Shown here one piece after another: positions 3,214 to 53,579 of a stretch of 64,000 bases of DNA; the stretch's first letter is position 1; the number at the start of each line of letters is the position of its first letter. The position numbers and the translations under genes are program-made. The stretch is from Gemmatimonadota bacterium (lineage in GTDB: Bacteria; Gemmatimonadota; Gemmatimonadetes; Gemmatimonadales; GWC2-71-9), in assembly GCA_040388535.1 (NCBI GenBank), contig JAZKBR010000002.1, positions 838,838-902,837 on the forward strand, read 5' to 3'. Below the pieces are notes generated by a model. That model searched no databases and was not told the DNA's origin. It saw only the letters and a list, made by a program, of their open reading frames with translations.

Positions 3214-4505
3214 TCGGCGCGCTCCTGCTGGCCGCGGCGCTCGCCGGGCCAGGATCGCGCGACACTCTGCCAGTGGTGACGTTGCGCGAAGCGCTGCAGG
3301 CGGCCGTCCGGCTCGATCCTGACTATGTCCAGTCGGTGGGCCAGCTCCACAACGCCGAATCCGCGCGCAAGGCTGCATTGCTGGTCTTCCTGCTGCCCTC
3401 GGTGTCGGCCTCGGCCGACTATTCGCAGCTCTCCACCAAGCAATTCAATGTCGGGACCGGCAGCCAGGCAAATGCCACGGGCCGCGCCTCCCTCGATGCG
3501 CGCTACGATTTGTTCACGGGCGGGCGCAAATGGAACGACATGCGGCGAGCCGCGGTGGAGCTCGAAGGGAGCGAGGCCGGTGAACTCGGTGCCCGTTTCA
3601 CCGCCGCGCTCGAGGTAGAGCGCGACTACTACGCCGTCCTCGGGGCGCGGGAACTGCGCGACGTGGCCGAGCAGCGCCGTACGCGCGCGCGCGAGGAACT
3701 GGTCACGGCGCGCGCGCGCGTGGTGAGCGGCGCAACCGTGCAATCCGACTCGTTGCAGGTACTCCTCGAAGTGCAGCGCGCCGAGGTTGACGTCCTGCGG
3801 AGCGGAGCCACCCTCACGGTGGCGCAGCTGCAGCTGGGGCGGCGGATCGGTCGGGCAACGGCCGTGGACGCGGCCCCGATTGATCCGGCGCTGCCCTCAG
3901 CCCTCGAAATGTCGCTCGACGATGCGGTACAGCAGGCGGTGGCCCAGGGACCCGCGTGGCGGCAGGCGCGGGCAACCGAACGATCCGCCGACCTGCAGAT
4001 CCGTTCGCGGCAGGGGAGCTACTTCCCCACCGTGACGCTGCTCGCCTCGCTCGGAAAGTTCGACGACAAGTTCTTCCCGACGCAGACCACTCGCCGGAGC
4101 GTCGGCTTCTCCCTGGCCCTGCCGATCTGGGATGGTGGCCAACGGGAACTCGCGATCTCGCGCCTGAAGAGCAGTCGCGATGTTGCCCGCACCATTCGCG
4201 AAGATCTCGAACGCGCGGCCCGCCGCGACGTGACCGAGGCGTATACCAACTACGATGTCTCCAGGCAGGCGCTCGCCATCAGCAGCACCGGTGTCGCGGT
4301 GGCGACCGAAATCCTGCGGGTCCAGCAGTCGCGCTATCGCGCCGGGTCGGGCACCGTCCTCGAACTGCTCGATGCCCAGTCACAGCTCGTGCAGGCGCAG
4401 GCCGATCTGGTACAGTCGCGCTACGGCGTGCGGCTCGCGCGTGCCGCCCTCGAGACAATGCTTGGTCGCCGCCTGACCAATGATCCTGACCGGAGTACTC
4501 CGTGA
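3210..4505 (+). CDS. TolC-family outer membrane efflux channel
   Basis: Outer-membrane channel and periplasmic tunnel partner of the preceding RND pump. The 431-residue protein has a short hydrophobic leader and two internally repeated halves rich in long Ala/Arg/Glu/Gln helices, as in the OEP family. YDLFTGG and LALPIWDGGQRE look like the two barrel-forming strands that begin each half, followed by coiled coil (for example ISRLKSSRDVARTI and VLELLDAQSQLVQAQ). The GTG start lies in a GTGA overlap with the pump stop, and its own stop overlaps the next start the same way, so translation is probably coupled. It has no Cys lipobox, unlike some OprM-type channels. Confidence 0.9.
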   Translation: MIGALLLAAALAGPGSRDTLPVVTLREALQAAVRLDPDYVQSVGQLHNAESARKAALLVFLLPSVSASADYSQLSTKQFNVGTGSQANATGRASLDARYDLFTGGRKWNDMRRAAVELEGSEAGELGARFTAALEVERDYYAVLGARELRDVAEQRRTRAREELVTARARVVSGATVQSDSLQVLLEVQRAEVDVLRSGATLTVAQLQLGRRIGRATAVDAAPIDPALPSALEMSLDDAVQQAVAQGPAWRQARATERSADLQIRSRQGSYFPTVTLLASLGKFDDKFFPTQTTRRSVGFSLALPIWDGGQRELAISRLKSSRDVARTIREDLERAARRDVTEAYTNYDVSRQALAISSTGVAVATEILRVQQSRYRAGSGTVLELLDAQSQLVQAQADLVQSRYGVRLARAALETMLGRRLTNDPDRSTP

Positions 4506-18904: not shown

Positions 18905-19921
18905 GTGACCATGCCCGCGCGCGATTTCGTCGCGCAGCAGGAGTCCAATCGCCGGAAGTCGTCGTGGCTGCTGATCGGCTTCGTCTTCTTTTTCGCCTGG
19001 GTCGGATTCGGCGGCGACCTCGCACTCTACCTCGCGACCGGCAACTCGCCGAGTGGGTCGTATCGCCACGTTGTCCCGGTCGTGGGGATCGTGGTCACGC
19101 TCCTGGCCTCGGGCTTTGCGTGGATGTCGTGGCTGCGCGGCGACAAGCAGGTTCTCTGGTCGACCCACGCGATGGAGCTGATCAATCCTGCGACCGACGG
19201 ACAGCGGCAACTGGTGAACGTCGTCGACGAGATGTCGATCGCGTCGGGGCAGCCACGACCGAAGCTTTTTCTGGTGCCGGATGACGATCCCAATGCCTTT
19301 GCCACGGGTCGCGATCCTGCGCACGCGTCACTCGCGGTCACCGACGGGCTGCTGACCTTGCTCGATCGCGACGAGTTGCAGGCGGTGGTGGCACACGAGA
19401 TGGGGCACATCGCACGCTACGACACGCAGCTGATGACGCTGGTGGCCGCGATGGTCGGTTCGATTGCGCTGCTCTCCGATGGCTTTGGCCGGATTCTCTG
19501 GCACAGTGGCAGCGCAAGTCGTGGTGTTGCGGGCGCCGTGGGTCGCCGCGGTTCGAAGAACCTTCCCGTGGCGATCATCATCCTGGTGCTCTGGCTCATC
19601 ACGCTCGTGCTGGCACCGATCGTCTCCCGCATCATGGCGATGGCGATCTCGCGCAAGCGGGAATTTCTCGCCGACGCCACGGCGGCACAGTTCACCCGCA
19701 ACCCAGGTGCGCTGGCTCGCGCCCTCACCAAACTCGATGGTGCGCGCGCGCCGACGCGCGCCGTGGGCCGTGGTGCCGCGCATCTCTGCATCGTGGACCC
19801 GAGTGATGGCCACTTCTCTCGCCTCAGCGGGATGATCGGCAATTTGCTGGCGTCGCACCCGCCGATCGCGGAGAGAATTGCGAGGCTGAAGGGGATGGCG
19901 TTTCAACAGGATGACAGATGA
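18905..19921 (+). CDS. M48 family membrane metalloprotease (HtpX-like)
   Basis: Integral-membrane zinc protease for membrane protein quality control. Two hydrophobic helices (about residues 20-65) precede the zinc motif H164-E-M-G-H168. Two further helices (about 178-195 and 220-240) follow, and the third ligand Glu lies in KREFLADATAAQF. The GTG at 18905 is used; ATG 18911 is almost equivalent. It lies nine bases after lemA. The stop codon falls inside a GATGACA heptamer array, so the last residues (QDDR) are encoded by the repeat. Confidence 0.9.
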   Translation: MTMPARDFVAQQESNRRKSSWLLIGFVFFFAWVGFGGDLALYLATGNSPSGSYRHVVPVVGIVVTLLASGFAWMSWLRGDKQVLWSTHAMELINPATDGQRQLVNVVDEMSIASGQPRPKLFLVPDDDPNAFATGRDPAHASLAVTDGLLTLLDRDELQAVVAHEMGHIARYDTQLMTLVAAMVGSIALLSDGFGRILWHSGSASRGVAGAVGRRGSKNLPVAIIILVLWLITLVLAPIVSRIMAMAISRKREFLADATAAQFTRNPGALARALTKLDGARAPTRAVGRGAAHLCIVDPSDGHFSRLSGMIGNLLASHPPIAERIARLKGMAFQQDDR

Positions 19922-20072
19922 CAGATGACAGATGACAGATGACAGATGACAGGTGACAGATGACAGATGACAGATGATGGATGATGGGTACACAGCGAAG
20001 GCCGACAACTCAATGAAGTGCCGGCCCTTCGCCTATCTGTCATCTGTCATCCATCATCTGTCATCCATCATC
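19910..20072. repeat. Heptamer-armed hairpin element, copy 1
   Basis: The 5' arm is eleven 7-bp units of GATGACA and close variants (19910-19986). The 3' arm is five units of TGTCATC/CATCATC (20038-20072), the reverse complement of the first arm. Between them is a hairpin core with GCGAAGG..CCG pairing to CGGCCCTTCGC (19995-20032). Copy 2 at 29202-29331 has the same plan and almost the same core. The element lies between convergent genes and contains the stop codon of the protease gene. Confidence 0.85.
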
Positions 20073-20079
20073 CTGCTGT

Positions 20080-21216
20080 TCAGTCTGTCAGCGTCCTGTC
20101 ATCCAGGAAAATCAGCGTACTCCGCCGCGCCACCACCGCCTCGAGGGCGCGATGCACATCGGCGTCGATCACGGTGCCGACGAGGTCGCGCATCCGGGCG
20201 ACGGCTTCGTCGGGCGTCATCTTTTCCTGATAGGGCCGCGCGGTCGTAAGCGCGTCGTAGATCTCGGCCGCGCCGAGGATGCGGGCGCCGATCGGAATCG
20301 CATTGGTCGCGAGGCCGTCGGGGTAGCCGGTGCCGTCGGCGCGTTCGTGGTGCGAGCGCACGAAGGCAATCACTTCGCGCAGATGGGTCAGCGGCGAGAG
20401 GATCTGCGCACCGATGGCGACGTGACTCTTGACGTGTTCGAACTCGTCGTTGGTGAGCGGCCCCTTCTTGTTGATCACCTCATCGCGGATGCCGATCTTG
20501 CCGATGTCGTGCAGCCGCCCCGCGGTGCGCACCATCTCGATCTGTTCATCGCCGAGTCCCATCTCGGCGGCGACCATTGCCGAGAGATCGGCGACCCGCG
20601 CCGAGTGGCCGCGGAGGTAGGCGTCCTTGGCCTCGAGGGCGTTCACCAGCGCCTCGAGGGTCGCCACCGAAATCCGCTCGAGATTGCCGCGCTCGCGCCG
20701 GAGGTCGGCGCCGCGCTGGACAATCTCCTGCCGGAGCCAGGCCTGGGTCTGCGCCTGCTCGATCGCTTCCCGGCGCCGGGCCAGTGCGCGGACGATCGCC
20801 CGCTGCAGGTCGGCGAGATCGACCGGCTTGACGAGGTAGTCCATCGCCCCGCGCTGCATGCAGAGCGCGGCGGAATGGGCATCGTTCACGGCGGTCAGCA
20901 TCAGGATGGCGGCGAAGGGTTCGTGCTCCAGCAAGGTCGGCACGAGGTCGAGCCCCGAGGAATCGGGCAGCCGGATATCGAGCAGGATGCAGGCAATCTT
21001 GCGGCGACGGATCTCGGCCACGGCCTGGGCACCATCGGCTGCGGTGACCACCTCGTGACCGATCCCGGTGAGAAAGCGGGAGAGGGAATCCCTGACCGAT
21101 GCCTCGTCGTCCACAATGAGAGTCGTGGTCACGCCCCCTTCGTCGGACTCGAGCGGTCCTCTGGCAGAGAGCGGATCGACGATCGACGAGGCGGACATAG
21201 GGGGCTCCGGTGGCAA
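20080..21216 (-). CDS. Response regulator with HD-GYP domain (c-di-GMP phosphodiesterase)
   Basis: Two-domain regulator. The receiver domain (about residues 30-145) has the acidic pair in LIVDDE, the phosphorylated Asp in LLDIRLPDSSG, and Lys in YLVKPV. A coiled linker follows, and then the HD-GYP domain shows RGHSARVADLS, RLHDIGKIGI, and HHERADGTGYPDGL, all metal and substrate motifs intact. It should hydrolyse cyclic di-GMP under control of a histidine kinase that is not in the window. The chosen start is the first of two nearby ATGs. The stop codon lies seven bases from the end of the heptamer repeat element. Confidence 0.93.
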   Translation of the reverse strand: MPPEPPMSASSIVDPLSARGPLESDEGGVTTTLIVDDEASVRDSLSRFLTGIGHEVVTAADGAQAVAEIRRRKIACILLDIRLPDSSGLDLVPTLLEHEPFAAILMLTAVNDAHSAALCMQRGAMDYLVKPVDLADLQRAIVRALARRREAIEQAQTQAWLRQEIVQRGADLRRERGNLERISVATLEALVNALEAKDAYLRGHSARVADLSAMVAAEMGLGDEQIEMVRTAGRLHDIGKIGIRDEVINKKGPLTNDEFEHVKSHVAIGAQILSPLTHLREVIAFVRSHHERADGTGYPDGLATNAIPIGARILGAAEIYDALTTARPYQEKMTPDEAVARMRDLVGTVIDADVHRALEAVVARRSTLIFLDDRTLTD

Positions 21217-26759: not shown

Positions 26760-29195
26760 ATGGCTTCATGGACTCTTCGTTCGCGTCCGATCGTGGGCGC
26801 ACTCGTTCTCACTACGCTGGCTACGCTTCCGGCGGTCGCTGGGCCGGGCGATCTGGTGCGCGAACGCGCCCAGTTCGGGCAGAGCGTGGCCGTGGTCGGC
26901 GATGTGGTCTATGTGGCCGAGCCTGGCGCCGGAAGTGCGGGCGGGGTCGTGCGGCTCTATCGTCGTGGCCCTGCAGGGTGGCGCGTCATCGAGACGGTCA
27001 AGTCGCCGATCGGCAGCCCGAGCGACGGGTTCGGCTATTCGATGGGGGTGAATGGCAAGTCGTTGCTGGTCACTGCGCTGAACGGACAGACCGGCAAGGG
27101 CGGGACGATCACCACCTACGCGCGTACCGCAAGCGGCGCCTGGGCCAGGACCGGAACGCTGAACTCCACTGATCCGAGCGTGAATCACTTCTTCGGCGCC
27201 GCGATCGCCCTCAACGGTGATGAGGCCGCAGTTGGTGCAACGCGCGAGGGCGCCGGAACGGTCCACCTTTACAAGCGTGGCGCCGATGGCACCTGGCAGG
27301 AGACCGGCACCCTCAAGCCGCCCGAGGCGAAGGCGCTCAACCACCGTTTCGGTTCGGCGATTTCGTGGCAGGGCGACTGGATTGCCGTGGGCGCGGGGAG
27401 CCGCGACAGCACGATCGGCACGGCATACCTCTACCATCGCGGCAGCAACGGCCAGTGGGGGCCTGCTGTCCCGGTGACGACGGCGAGTTTCGGGGCGGAG
27501 CCTTCCTTCGGTCAGGCAATCCTGCTGGAGAAAGATGAGCTCTTTGTCGGAGCGCCCGGTGCCAATCACAATAGCGGTGCGGTGATGGTGTTCCGCCGCG
27601 ATGCGAAGAGCGACCAGTGGCAGCCCGGGGTGGCGCTGTCCCCATTCGGGGTCGCACCTGCCTTCGGCGGCAACGTGGCCACGTTCGGCACCGCGATGGC
27701 CATGGTCGGAAACGAACTCTGGGTCGGCGCACCAAACGCCGATCGGCGTGGTGGTGTCTACCGGCTTGAGCGTCGCGGCAGTGAATGGATCGGCAGCTCG
27801 CGCCTGACCATCGATTCAGTGAGTGCCAACGCGGGGTTGGGCTCGGCCCTCGCGACCAGCGGTTCGGTCGCCGCCGTCGCGATGCCGCAGGATGCCGGCT
27901 CGGGCACCGTGGTCTTTCTCAGCAAGAATGCCGCAGGAAACTGGTCGACCACCGGTCGTGCCTTCATCGCCACGACCGAGTTTGCCTCCGTGACCGGCGC
28001 TGAGGTGCAGTGCGGCGCTGGGAAGGCGAAGGAGTTCAGCTGTGGCAATGCCTCGCTGCTTTCGTTCCTTCCGATCTCGCAGGTTGGCGGGGTCCGTGGG
28101 ACGCAGATGAATGACAACTGGGGCTGGACCGATTCGCTCAGCGGCAAGGAGTACGCCCTGCTGGGGCGCACCGACGGGACGGCGTTCGTGGACGTCAGCG
28201 ATCCGTCACATCCGCGCTACCTCGGAAACCTGCCGCTGACCGAAGGGGCTAACCCGGCCGCGTGGCGCGATATCAAGACCTACAAGGGCTATGCCTTCAT
28301 CGTGAGCGATGGTGCCGGTCCGCACGGGATGCAGGTGTTCGACCTCAAGCGGCTGCGGAGCGTGACCACGCCGAAGGTGTTCACGGCGGATTACATCTAC
28401 CGGAACATCAACAGCGCCCACAACATCGTCATCAACGAGCAGAGTGGCTTCGCCTATGCGGTCGGGGCGTCCTCCGGCGGCGAAACGTGTGGCGGCGGAC
28501 TGCACATGATCGACATCCGCGACCCGCTCTCGCCGAAATTTGCCGGCTGCTTCCAGGATACCAAGACCGGCATCAACAAGACCGGCTACAGTCACGATGC
28601 CCAGTGTGTGACCTATCACGGCCCCGACGCCCGCTACACCGGCAAGGAGATCTGCATCGGCTCCAATGAGACCGGCATCAGTGTGGCGGACGTGACCGAC
28701 AAGAGCCACACGGTCGCCATCGCCCACGCCGCCTACCCCGACGTGCAGTATGCCCACCAGGGATGGTTCACCGACGACCATCGTTATTTCTACCTGAATG
28801 ACGAAGGCGACGAGACCAACGCGGCGGCCGACACGACAGGTAAGCTCGAGGCCGCCAAGGGCACCCGCACCATGATCTGGGACATGTCGAAGCTCGACGA
28901 CCCCGTGATGACGGCCACCTATGTCGGCACGACCAAATCAATTGACCACAACTTGTACGTGAAGGGGAACCGGCTCTACGAGGCGAACTACTCCTCCGGG
29001 CTGCGGATCATGGACATCTCGGACCCGAAGAAGCCGCGGGAAGTAGGCTTCTTCGATACCTACCCGGCGGACGATGCCGTCCAGTTCACCGGCGCCTGGA
29101 GTACCTACCCGTACTTCAAGAGCGGCACCATCATCATCACCAGCATCGGTGAAGGCGTCTTCTTCGTGAAGGATCGGACGCAGGCGGTGCCGTGA
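26760..29195 (+). CDS. Secreted choice-of-anchor B family beta-propeller protein (copy B)
   Basis: An 811-residue paralogue of the protein at 21379-23781 with the same order: signal peptide (VGALVLTTLATLPAVAG), FG-GAP-like blades (FGQSVAVVGDVVYVAEPG, FFGAAIALNGDEAAVGA), then LVIVD blades with the same Cys positions (GGETCGGGLH, FAGCFQD, AQCVTYHG, KEICIGSNE). Both copies end in DRTQA(I/V)P. ATG 26760 has a CAGGAG ribosome site 5-6 bases upstream; an in-frame stretch reaching back into the previous gene is rejected. The stop lies seven bases before the second heptamer repeat element. Confidence 0.88.
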   Translation: MASWTLRSRPIVGALVLTTLATLPAVAGPGDLVRERAQFGQSVAVVGDVVYVAEPGAGSAGGVVRLYRRGPAGWRVIETVKSPIGSPSDGFGYSMGVNGKSLLVTALNGQTGKGGTITTYARTASGAWARTGTLNSTDPSVNHFFGAAIALNGDEAAVGATREGAGTVHLYKRGADGTWQETGTLKPPEAKALNHRFGSAISWQGDWIAVGAGSRDSTIGTAYLYHRGSNGQWGPAVPVTTASFGAEPSFGQAILLEKDELFVGAPGANHNSGAVMVFRRDAKSDQWQPGVALSPFGVAPAFGGNVATFGTAMAMVGNELWVGAPNADRRGGVYRLERRGSEWIGSSRLTIDSVSANAGLGSALATSGSVAAVAMPQDAGSGTVVFLSKNAAGNWSTTGRAFIATTEFASVTGAEVQCGAGKAKEFSCGNASLLSFLPISQVGGVRGTQMNDNWGWTDSLSGKEYALLGRTDGTAFVDVSDPSHPRYLGNLPLTEGANPAAWRDIKTYKGYAFIVSDGAGPHGMQVFDLKRLRSVTTPKVFTADYIYRNINSAHNIVINEQSGFAYAVGASSGGETCGGGLHMIDIRDPLSPKFAGCFQDTKTGINKTGYSHDAQCVTYHGPDARYTGKEICIGSNETGISVADVTDKSHTVAIAHAAYPDVQYAHQGWFTDDHRYFYLNDEGDETNAAADTTGKLEAAKGTRTMIWDMSKLDDPVMTATYVGTTKSIDHNLYVKGNRLYEANYSSGLRIMDISDPKKPREVGFFDTYPADDAVQFTGAWSTYPYFKSGTIIITSIGEGVFFVKDRTQAVP

Positions 29196-29201
29196 CAGCA
29201 G

Positions 29202-29331
29202 GATGACAGATGACAGATGACAGATGGTGGATGACGGATGGTGGATTGTGACGAAGGGCCGACATCTCAATGAGGTGCCGGCCCTTCGCTGTTATCCATC
29301 ATCTGTCATCTGTCATCCGTCATCCATCATC
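29202..29331. repeat. Heptamer-armed hairpin element, copy 2
   Basis: The 5' arm is seven 7-bp units (GATGACA three times, then GATGGTG, GATGACG, GATGGTG, GATTGTG). The 3' arm is five units (CATCATC, TGTCATC twice, CGTCATC, CATCATC). The core is a near-continuous hairpin: 29252-29261 pairs perfectly with 29279-29288, and 29263-29268 pairs with 29272-29277 around an AAT loop. Copy 1 lies at 19910-20072. The stop codon of the mqnD-like gene is inside the 3' arm. Confidence 0.85.
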
Positions 29332-30193
29332 CGATGAATTCGACGTCCACTCGCTTCGGGATGATCCCGGCTTCGGCTGCACGCTCGAGGAGTAGTCGTA
29401 CCGCGGCGCGCCCGCGCTCGCCGTAATCGACGGTCCACTGGTTGACATACATCCCGACGAACTCGTCGGTCCGCTCATCGGAGATGCCGCGATTGTACTG
29501 CGCCGCGTGCGCGAGCGCGGCCGCCCGGTGTTCCAGCGAGTAGACAATGCTGTCGCGGAGGTCGCGGGCCACCTGCTCGATGACATCGCGACCGAGGTCA
29601 CGGCGGACGACATTGCCGCCGAGGGGCAGCGGGAGGCCGGTTTCGGCGAGCCACCATTCGCCCATGTCGGCCCAGAGATGAAGGCCGTCGTCGGCGTAGG
29701 TGAGCTGACCTTCGTGGATGATCAGGCCGAGCTCGACATCACCGTTGTGCACCTCGGCCTCGATCTGGTCGAAGGGCACAACAACGGCTTCAAAGTCGGG
29801 TTGCCAGAGTCGCAGCGAGAGGTACGCCGTGGTGAGCAGTCCCGGGATGGCGATCCGCTTTCCCTTGGCAGCTGCGCGCACCGTGCTGCTGCCCGAGACA
29901 CGATCGGCGGGAGGCGCCGATTTCGACACCAGTCGCGGACCGTAGCCGTCACCCATCGAGGAGCCACTCGAGAGCAGGGCGTAGTCGTCGGCGATGTAGG
30001 CATAGGCGTGAATCGACACAGCCGACACATCCAGCTCCTTGTGCCGGGCGCGCTGATTCAACGTCTCGATATCACAGAGCTCGTGCTCGTAACGCAGATT
30101 GCCGGTGTTGATCTTCCCTTCGGCGAGGGCGTAGAACATGAACGCGTCATCGGAGTCCGGCGAGTGCGCGACCTGAATCGTCTGAACACTCAC
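29327..30193 (-). CDS. mqnD: MqnD-like 1,4-dihydroxy-6-naphthoate synthase (menaquinone, futalosine route)
   Basis: Periplasmic-binding-protein fold enzyme of the MqnA/MqnD family. The start VAHSPDSDDAFMFYALAEG is the MqnD-type substrate motif (MqnD enzymes usually read SPCPNDTFxFxAL). It is followed by LNQRARHKELDVSAVS, KRIAIPGLLTTAYL and LIIHEGQLTYAD. The enzyme would turn cyclic dehypoxanthinyl futalosine into dihydroxynaphthoate. GTG 30193 gives a GTGA overlap with the zinc-ribbon gene upstream, so the two are co-transcribed. The stop codon is formed inside the heptamer repeat. MqnA cannot be excluded without an alignment. Confidence 0.8.
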   Translation of the reverse strand: MSVQTIQVAHSPDSDDAFMFYALAEGKINTGNLRYEHELCDIETLNQRARHKELDVSAVSIHAYAYIADDYALLSSGSSMGDGYGPRLVSKSAPPADRVSGSSTVRAAAKGKRIAIPGLLTTAYLSLRLWQPDFEAVVVPFDQIEAEVHNGDVELGLIIHEGQLTYADDGLHLWADMGEWWLAETGLPLPLGGNVVRRDLGRDVIEQVARDLRDSIVYSLEHRAAALAHAAQYNRGISDERTDEFVGMYVNQWTVDYGERGRAAVRLLLERAAEAGIIPKRVDVEFIG

Positions 30194-35641: not shown

Positions 35642-36670
35642 ATGACCCCTGTACTCGGTATTTTTCTCCTGCTCGCAATCGCGGCACTGCGCCTCGGGAG
35701 TTCACTCCTGTTGCCGATCACCGTGGCAGGGCTGCTTGCGCTGCTGCTGGCACCCACGGTTCGCTGGCTGGTTCGGCGCCGGATTCCGTCCGCCCTGGCC
35801 GCAGGGCTGGTGGTTGCGGGCGTGACGGTAGGCCTGATCGTCTCGATCATGGTGCTCGCGGCGCCAGCGGCCGACTGGCTCGATCGCGCGCCCAAGACCC
35901 TGGAGCAAGCGGAGCGCAAGATTCGCAAACTCGCGAAGCCGCTGCAGAGTCTGCAGGAGACCGCCGAGAAGGTGCAGCAGGTCACGCAGGGCGGGGTGGC
36001 GAGCGGTCCACCAGCACGGTCGGTCACGGTGGCGCCGGCCGGGATCATGAGCAAGCTCTCGGGCACGACGATGAGCGCACTCGGCGCGCTGATGACGGTG
36101 ATCTTTCTCGCCTACTTCCTGCTCGCGAGCGGTGATCGCTTCCGTGAAAAGTTTGCCGACATGCTGCCCGAGCGACACCGGCGAGAAATGGCTGCCGCGA
36201 TCGTCGAGATGCAGGGGCAGATGTCACACTACCTGCTGCTCACGACGCTCATCAATGCTGGTGTCGGCGTCCTCACCTGGGGCGCCTTGGTCGCGATCGA
36301 TTTTCCCAATCCCGCGCTCTGGGCCGTGGTGGCCGCCGTCCTCAATTACATCCCCTACGTCGGTGCGGCGGTGACGCTGGCGGTCATCGGGGTGGCAGGG
36401 CTCGTGTCGTTCGACACCACCCGCGAACCGCTGATCGCGATGGGGGCCTTCTTCGTGATCAACATGATCGAGAGCAACATCGCGACGCCGATGCTCCTCG
36501 GCCGCCGGTTGCCACTCAACCCGGTCGCGATCTTCGTGGGATTGCTCTTCTGGGGCTGGGTATGGGGGATCACCGGGGCCGTGCTGGCGGTGCCACTGAC
36601 GGTGCTGGTGAAGGTCGTGGCCGACCGGGTCGGACCGCTCAAGCCCTTCGGTGAGTTGCTCGACAACTGA
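35642..36670 (+). CDS. AI-2E family membrane transporter
   Basis: A 342-residue permease of the PerM/YdiK/TqsA family. Two N-terminal helix pairs, a central amphipathic segment (EQAERKIRKLAKPLQSLQETAEKVQQ), and a C-terminal membrane block with the family motifs ALWAVVAAVLNYIPYVGA and NPVAIFVGLLFWGWVWGITGAVLAVPL. Members export varied small solutes, and the AI-2 link does not hold for most. ATG 35642 follows the ctaG stop by seven bases. Confidence 0.9.
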   Translation: MTPVLGIFLLLAIAALRLGSSLLLPITVAGLLALLLAPTVRWLVRRRIPSALAAGLVVAGVTVGLIVSIMVLAAPAADWLDRAPKTLEQAERKIRKLAKPLQSLQETAEKVQQVTQGGVASGPPARSVTVAPAGIMSKLSGTTMSALGALMTVIFLAYFLLASGDRFREKFADMLPERHRREMAAAIVEMQGQMSHYLLLTTLINAGVGVLTWGALVAIDFPNPALWAVVAAVLNYIPYVGAAVTLAVIGVAGLVSFDTTREPLIAMGAFFVINMIESNIATPMLLGRRLPLNPVAIFVGLLFWGWVWGITGAVLAVPLTVLVKVVADRVGPLKPFGELLDN

Positions 36671-36680
36671 GGGGGCCGGA

Positions 36681-36709
36681 TTGCCGGGGAGCCCCATCCG
36701 GGGTAGAAT
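36681..36709 (+). promoter_or_regulatory. Promoter of tRNA-Cys
   Basis: TTGCCG at 36681-36686, a 17-base spacer, and TAGAAT at 36704-36709 form a good housekeeping promoter starting about ten bases before the tRNA. Confidence 0.7.
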
Positions 36710-36719
36710 CCCCGCCGTT

Positions 36720-36790
<71 letters not shown>

Positions 36791-36794
36791 CTGC

Positions 36795-36831
36795 GCGGCG
36801 GGTCTCGTATTCACGAGGCCCGCCGCTTTTT
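36795..36831 (+). terminator. Intrinsic terminator after tRNA-Cys
   Basis: Stem GCGGCGGG (36795-36802) with CCCGCCGC (36819-36826), extended inside by CTCGT/ACGAG, then five Ts at 36827-36831. Confidence 0.9.
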
Positions 36832-36842
36832 CGTTGCCGCGA

Positions 36843-53558: not shown

Positions 53559-53579
53559 ATCTCCAATCTCCAATCTCCG
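53559..53579. repeat. Three 7-bp tandem units between mmsA and cheA
   Basis: ATCTCCA, ATCTCCA, ATCTCCG in tandem in the divergent gap. Only three units, so this may be chance; noted because other heptamer repeats occur in the window. Confidence 0.4.

Follow-up and report, generated by a model that had tools for sequence, protein, structure and literature searches.

What are the two intergenic elements, each a hairpin enclosed between inverted arrays of heptamers, that lie about 9 kb apart in the genome of a soil bacterium of the Gemmatimonadota? A sequence-only reading took them for members of a dispersed family, either bidirectional terminators or small mobile repeats whose arms expand by slippage. 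The window, i.e. the whole stretch of 64,000 nucleotides that was analysed, belongs to contig C2 of a MAG of 11 contigs and 3.72 Mb, a draft assembly in which errors are possible at repeats, array lengths included.

Organization of the two copies

The elements and their neighbours in the window are as follows.

18905..19921, + strand: M48-family peptidase gene, left neighbour of copy 1, with its stop inside the second heptamer
19910..19986, + strand: left arm of copy 1, 11 GATGACA-type units
about 19994..20033, no strand: core hairpin of copy 1, core family A
20038..20072, - strand: right arm of copy 1, 5 inverted units (TGTCATC)
20080..21132, - strand: HD-GYP response regulator gene, right neighbour of copy 1
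26856..29195, + strand: FG-GAP / LVIVD repeat protein gene, left neighbour of copy 2
29202..29250, + strand: left arm of copy 2, 7 units
about 29250..29290, no strand: core hairpin of copy 2, core family A
29290..29331, - strand: right arm of copy 2, 6 inverted units
29327..30193, - strand: menaquinone biosynthesis gene (VitK2_biosynth, MqnD type), right neighbour of copy 2

Both copies thus follow the plan initially described, GATGACA-type heptamers, a core hairpin and then TGTCATC heptamers, and Tandem Repeats Finder returns the same arrays. The unit numbers first given are borne out for three arms (11, 5 and 7), the right arm of copy 2 having 6 units by the present scoring and not 5. Both copies do lie between convergent genes (M48 peptidase/HD-GYP and LVIVD-FG-GAP/MqnD-type), and the flanking stop codons are indeed located within units or 6–7 nt away: the right gene of copy 1 stops 7 nt past the arm, the left gene of copy 2 stops 6 nt ahead of it and the right gene of copy 2 ends on the TGA of the outermost unit. 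A (GATGACA)2 probe with up to 3 mismatches has 21 matches for 1.6 expected, a number reached by none of 100 shuffles, which excludes a chance origin of the arrays. As anticipated from the complementarity of the arms, each copy is predicted to fold as RNA into a single long hairpin, of -82.7 kcal/mol (z -8.4) for copy 1 and -87.9 kcal/mol (z -11.7) for copy 2, with 0 of 200 shuffles equally stable in either case. The core of copy 2 shares 38 identical nt, read in the opposite direction, with a core located 153 kb away (G000 C2:1021190-1021230).

A search of the window against Rfam 15 at the gathering score detects no family at either copy, the sole match being a tRNA at 36720-36790. This tRNA belongs to a convergent spacer (36670-36842) that also carries a classical terminator of the same genome, with the hairpin GCGGCGGGTCTCG..CGAGGCCCGCCGC and TTTTT behind it.

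A dispersed family with a strict period of seven

A three-unit probe with up to 3 mismatches has 273 overlapping matches in the host genome, whereas its reversed control has none. The complete GATGACA(n)-core-TGTCATC(n) elements that can be delineated among the matches listed number at least 38, a lower bound, and are accompanied by about eleven single or incomplete arrays. The family is therefore dispersed, as had been proposed, and far from being limited to two copies. The pairing rule is GATGACA first and TGTCATC second, and the matches listed include no close pair that begins with TGTCATC. Among 472 scored units, GATGACA (204), GATGACG (78) and GATGATG (75) predominate; none of these three has the tract of 3 or more G per unit associated with G-quadruplex potential. 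The outer edges frequently read CAG|GATGACA ... TGTCATC|CTG, and the end of contig C2 and the start of contig C8 fall within such arrays. The lengths of the two arms of an element are uncorrelated, and the two arms are only modestly more alike than arms of different elements (23 of 2000 permutations reach the observed likeness).

A sequence-blind repeat scan for units of 4–13 nt, covering the window and 20 evenly spread 20-kb stretches (464 kb), finds 29 intergenic tandem arrays in the host, all of period 7; other thresholds add only period-14 multiples and one array of period 6. Their units include GATGACA, GGATGAT, GGAGAAG and AGAGACT, used in the same manner. With an exact 7-nt unit in excess over other lengths and a distribution over many intergenic loci, these arrays belong to the heptameric long simple sequence repeats. 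At one locus (L196 1456-1645, G000 C2:641456-641645), CTAGAGA x6 adjoins GGAGAAG x8 around a type B core, and the GGAGAAG arm alone is mirrored on the far side.

Modularity of arms and cores

The 35 cores of at least 20 nt comprise two homologous families of nine members each and 17 cores that match no other. Members of family A form the hairpin GAAGGGCCGGCA..TGCCGGCCCTTC. The palindrome of family B is longer and starts with TGTCATCCTGAGCGAAGCG; it is the core of nine armed elements and has 215 half-site matches in the host genome (up to 3 mismatches), far more than its armed copies. Examples of the dispersed palindrome are found at C1:2437-2549 and C1:20006-20116 of G000, and one without arms lies between convergent genes in the congener G081 (L367 880-995). 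The ends of family B (CAGGATGACA) are similar to the outer margin of GATGACA arms and might possibly have been the seed of the heptamer.

A covariance model of family A recovers 26 places, most of them on both strands, as expected for a palindrome. Both heptamer arms are present at 14 of the 18 places read, and one arm or a trace at the other 4, proportions that may favour armed copies as the model was trained mostly on members found through their arms. These arms are of three kinds (GATGACA/GGATGAT, AGAGACT and GGAGAAG). When both neighbours are called, 15 of 16 family A places are convergent, and the 16th (L405) faces a tRNA-Pro on the opposite strand. In 13 aligned cores, 9 of 17 pairs are changed on both sides, and 83% of the cells pair, a value that does not exceed 51% in slid versions; this covariation, equalled by 6 to 11 of 500 shuffles on most measures, is supportive, not decisive. 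Arms and cores are thus modular: one terminator-like core family is found inside three heptamer arms, and GATGACA arms hold unrelated cores.

Location at the 3' ends of genes

According to gene calls made by a codon-usage script written for this analysis, individual calls of which may be wrong, the 37 elements with both neighbours among the matches listed are distributed among 23 convergent, 11 tandem and 3 divergent pairs. For comparison, evenly spaced stretches of this genome contain 177 gene pairs separated by 50 nt or more, of which only 24 are convergent (Fisher P 3e-9). The location "always between convergent genes" inferred from the two window copies is consequently too strict: 14 of the 37 elements lie outside convergent pairs, mostly behind the 3' end of a gene of a tandem pair. 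The preference for gene ends holds more generally, since 52 of the 57 gene 3' ends beside elements are within 15 nt of the element edge (median 2 nt), whereas this is true of only 3 of 17 gene 5' ends (median 61 nt; P 1e-8). In 18 cases, the TGA of the outermost unit is the stop codon itself, the stops being distributed 18:2:3 over the first, second and third unit. A short ATCTCCA x2.9 array at 53559-53578 of the window, with divergent genes on either side, is an exception to the gene-end rule if it is real. Arms acting as universal stop signals in all frames were also considered and dropped, as GGATGTT, GGAGAAG and GGATATT contain no stop codon.

Turnover of the heptamer in related genomes

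The element is not conserved in sequence across the genus: (GATGACA)3, with up to 2 mismatches, is missing from all nine congeners, which have other heptamers or hardly any spacer at the orthologous junctions, and nearly missing from the family. A degenerate four-unit probe detects arrays in 39 of 102 genomes of the family and in 24 of 160 genomes of a phylum sample, mostly from this order with almost none in the other families of the class; these counts are not prevalences, as the probe was built from units already known, overlooks others, and its reversed control also matches some heptamers. The units are specific to lineages, for instance GGTGAAC, GGATGTT and GGTCGTA in G077, GGAGAAC in G078, AGTGAAC in G048, GGTGATT in both G188 and G134, and GGAGGTC in G209. 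All 44 intergenic arrays found in G077 have period 7 (in stretches partly chosen for matches, so that their density is biased), and G076 has five intergenic arrays in 200 kb. In two congeners, G081 and G084, a stretch of 100 kb per genome contains no array, which indicates that the arms are dispensable.

Around mqnD in other Gemmatimonadota (255 kb), period 7 is the commonest but other periods also occur. At non-host loci, a simple rule identifies an inverted partner for about half of the main arrays, and the median distance is 7 nt to gene 3' ends versus 52 nt to 5' ends. The purine arm comes first in the host GATGACA family; this is not a general rule, as the pyrimidine arm is first in some other genera. 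Downstream of mqnD, a TCGCTAT heptamer hairpin is found at L253 3830-3915, and TCGGTTG heptamers, a type-B-like palindrome and an octamer array (CGCATTCC x8) at L261, about 3465-3645. A Gemmataceae MAG (Planctomycetota) carries intergenic TCTCGGT and GATCGGA arrays (L324 37-280) in a neighbourhood chosen for mqnD alone.

Orthologous junctions were compared at sites picked because the host carries an element there. At the MqnD junction of copy 2, G080 has GGATGAT arms and a family-A-like core, G082 has GATAGGA, G077 has GGTGAAA arms and G079 has a hairpin without heptamers. The junction of copy 1 carries GGTGAAA arms in G077, and its spacer is just 24 nt in G078 and 20 nt in G079. At the L043 junction, GGTCGTA arms surround GGGCCGGTTCC..GGAACCGGCCC in G077, and the spacers range from -4 to 18 nt in five others. 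At the L055 junction, G080 has GGATGAT, G076 has GACGAGA and G077 has GGTCGTA surrounding a type B palindrome; type B is accompanied by one short arm in G083 and stands alone in G081, the spacer of G084 being 13 nt long; GACGAGA is also present at the L058 junction of G080. The convergent spacer at these sites is therefore either such a hairpin or almost nothing. These comparisons suggest that the shape of the hairpin is kept while its heptamer sequence is replaced between relatives.

The C-terminus of the MqnD-type protein is FVG*/FIG* in relatives with and without arrays, and that encoded at the L043 junction (AMxEIL..*) keeps its length. Random insertions that truncate genes, translation then stopping at the first stop of the arm, are unlikely because of this agreement of the C-termini with element-free relatives and of the 18:2:3 distribution of the stops.

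A putative two-way terminator and alternative explanations

The elements are probably hairpins that act at gene 3' ends in both directions, most likely as transcription terminators, with outer stems composed of heptamer arrays specific to each lineage. The following model may be proposed. Transcription from either side of a terminator-like core located between inverted heptamer arrays would give a very long stem-loop right after the stop codon; this hairpin would halt the RNA polymerase or protect the mRNA 3' end, so that one element would serve two convergent genes, or one gene in tandem pairs. The arms would lengthen by whole-heptamer slippage, and the arrays of a genome would be kept alike by loci exchanging or copying their repeats; the heptamer would thus shift from lineage to lineage with its pairing retained.

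Position and folding favour the terminator half of the sequence-only reading, termination itself being predicted. The almost exclusively convergent places of core family A, the changes on both sides of its pairs, the other heptamers at orthologous junctions and the native C-termini also speak for this model. The elements place a stable predicted hairpin shortly after the stop codon, as expected of terminators. Hairpins with z < -3 occur in 5 of 5 convergent spacers of the host with arrays, in 12 of 16 without arrays and in none of 35 array-free divergent spacers (z-scores based on only ten composition-preserving shuffles per spacer), which indicates that the armed hairpins occupy the usual site of convergent-spacer hairpins in this organism. 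Neither copy is picked up by a terminator scan of the window, and most hairpins have no U-tract directly behind them: of 74 arm edges, only 7 have TTTT in the adjoining 12 nt on the outside. U-rich stretches are present inside the arm after some cores. For GC-rich Streptomyces, transcripts are reported to end without a U-tract (PMC8780764). The scarcity of U-tracts, the 14 of 37 elements in non-convergent positions (3 of them divergent), the unrelatedness of about half of the cores and the two array-free congeners count against the terminator reading.

It is rather unlikely that the family is a small transposing inverted-repeat element (MITE- or REP/BIME-like) whose 3'-end position reflects tolerated insertion sites. 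The dispersal of the copies, the two homologous core families with their 38-nt identical pair 153 kb apart, and the several congeners that are nearly spacer-free at orthologous junctions, as empty sites would be, all fit such an element; about half of the core hairpins do belong to two dispersed repeat families, so that this part of the mobile-repeat proposal stands. However, arms and cores assort independently, unlike a single transposing unit, native stops are in the outermost unit far above the random-insertion expectation (18:2:3), and neither an insertion hallmark nor a linked transposase was found. The host genome has two Y1-transposase genes (PF01797), but they are without flanking elements: in a RAYT test, the 3-kb loci of the two PF01797 matches contain no type B palindrome (up to 4 mismatches) and no matching heptamer array.

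One unit common to many loci would require a spread between loci, by recombination or copying. It is conceivable, although improbable, that a dedicated process working in 7-nt steps flanks many unlinked hairpins at gene ends with one and the same heptamer, specific to the lineage, and swaps the unit genome-wide in concert, with pairing kept, like a telomere-repeat change in a species.

Non-functional slippage, in which heptamers grow where the polymerase slips at hairpins and persist only where they are tolerated, for instance in convergent spacers, is also an improbable account of the whole. The strict period 7, the uncorrelated arm lengths and the idea of a 7-nt polymerase footprint, as cited in PMC4679880 and PMC4692102, agree with it, and expansion of the arms by slippage as first suggested fits these lengths. 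Independent slippage nevertheless cannot explain one heptamer common to dozens of loci, and it leaves unexplained the inverted pairing of the arms, the presence of one core family in different arms and the strong hairpins of array-free convergent spacers. Finally, binding sites for a protein recognising the repeat in DNA or RNA, as suggested for the TAACTGA repeats, would fit the genome-wide tandem reiteration of one lineage-specific unit but are very improbable, as a single genome combines several unrelated heptamers with the same core and the position of the stop codons is left unexplained.

Relationships with known repeats

Bidirectional intrinsic terminators without a clear U-tract likewise have a strong symmetric hairpin right after convergent stops; the host elements, for which termination is a prediction, differ from them by an outer stem built of tandem heptamers. 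REP/BIME are, as the host elements, dispersed intergenic palindromes at gene 3' ends; they differ in that REPs have no heptamer arms and in that the host Y1 transposase genes are not flanked by elements.

In most genomes, no class of long simple repeats is more abundant than the heptanucleotides, and a 7-nt polymerase footprint has been proposed (Mrazek 2007, cited in PMC4679880 and PMC4692102). The host arrays resemble these repeats in being intergenic with a dominant period 7; as cited in these two papers, the latter are a general statistical class without stated architecture that does not cover Gemmatimonadota. The TAACTGA repeats of marine Beggiatoaceae (PMC4679880) are also dispersed intergenic heptamer arrays but are direct repeats upstream of start codons, with one indirect repeat reported.

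The heptameric repeats of Xanthomonas (GGGAATC) and Nostoc (GGGGA(C/T)T), which are G-rich and interpreted as G-quadruplexes (PMC4692102), have in common with the host elements a 7-base unit, a dispersed intergenic location, inverted close pairs (70 in Xcc), a location nearer the ORF that precedes them than the one that follows and a length and sequence that vary between related species. The statement that no named family has this layout was therefore too strong, as inverted heptamer pairs occur near gene ends in Xanthomonas, and these repeats are a closer match than the cyanobacterial STRR initially used for comparison. Only 16% of the Xanthomonas/Nostoc repeats lie between convergent ORFs (PMC4692102) versus 62% of the host elements. 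The latter are moreover not G-rich, enclose core hairpins, combine several heptamers with one core family and have their unit swapped at the same junction in congeners. In structure and position, the family fits the published heptamer-repeat class, from which it differs in G-quadruplex potential.

In the open-access literature, nothing was found on intergenic or heptamer repeats in Gemmatimonas or Gemmatimonadota, nor any precedent for heptamer exchange around one core within a genome or at one junction between species, an earlier report elsewhere being possible. To our knowledge, the dominance of heptamers among bacterial long simple repeats has been noted for years and has no accepted explanation. 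The present version, not G-rich but likewise inverted and located at gene ends, suggests that what these repeats have in common is a pair of complementary heptamer arms where genes end. As congeners differ in the unit found at a given junction, it becomes testable whether pairing, and not sequence, is under selection, and how dozens of loci come to share one heptamer.
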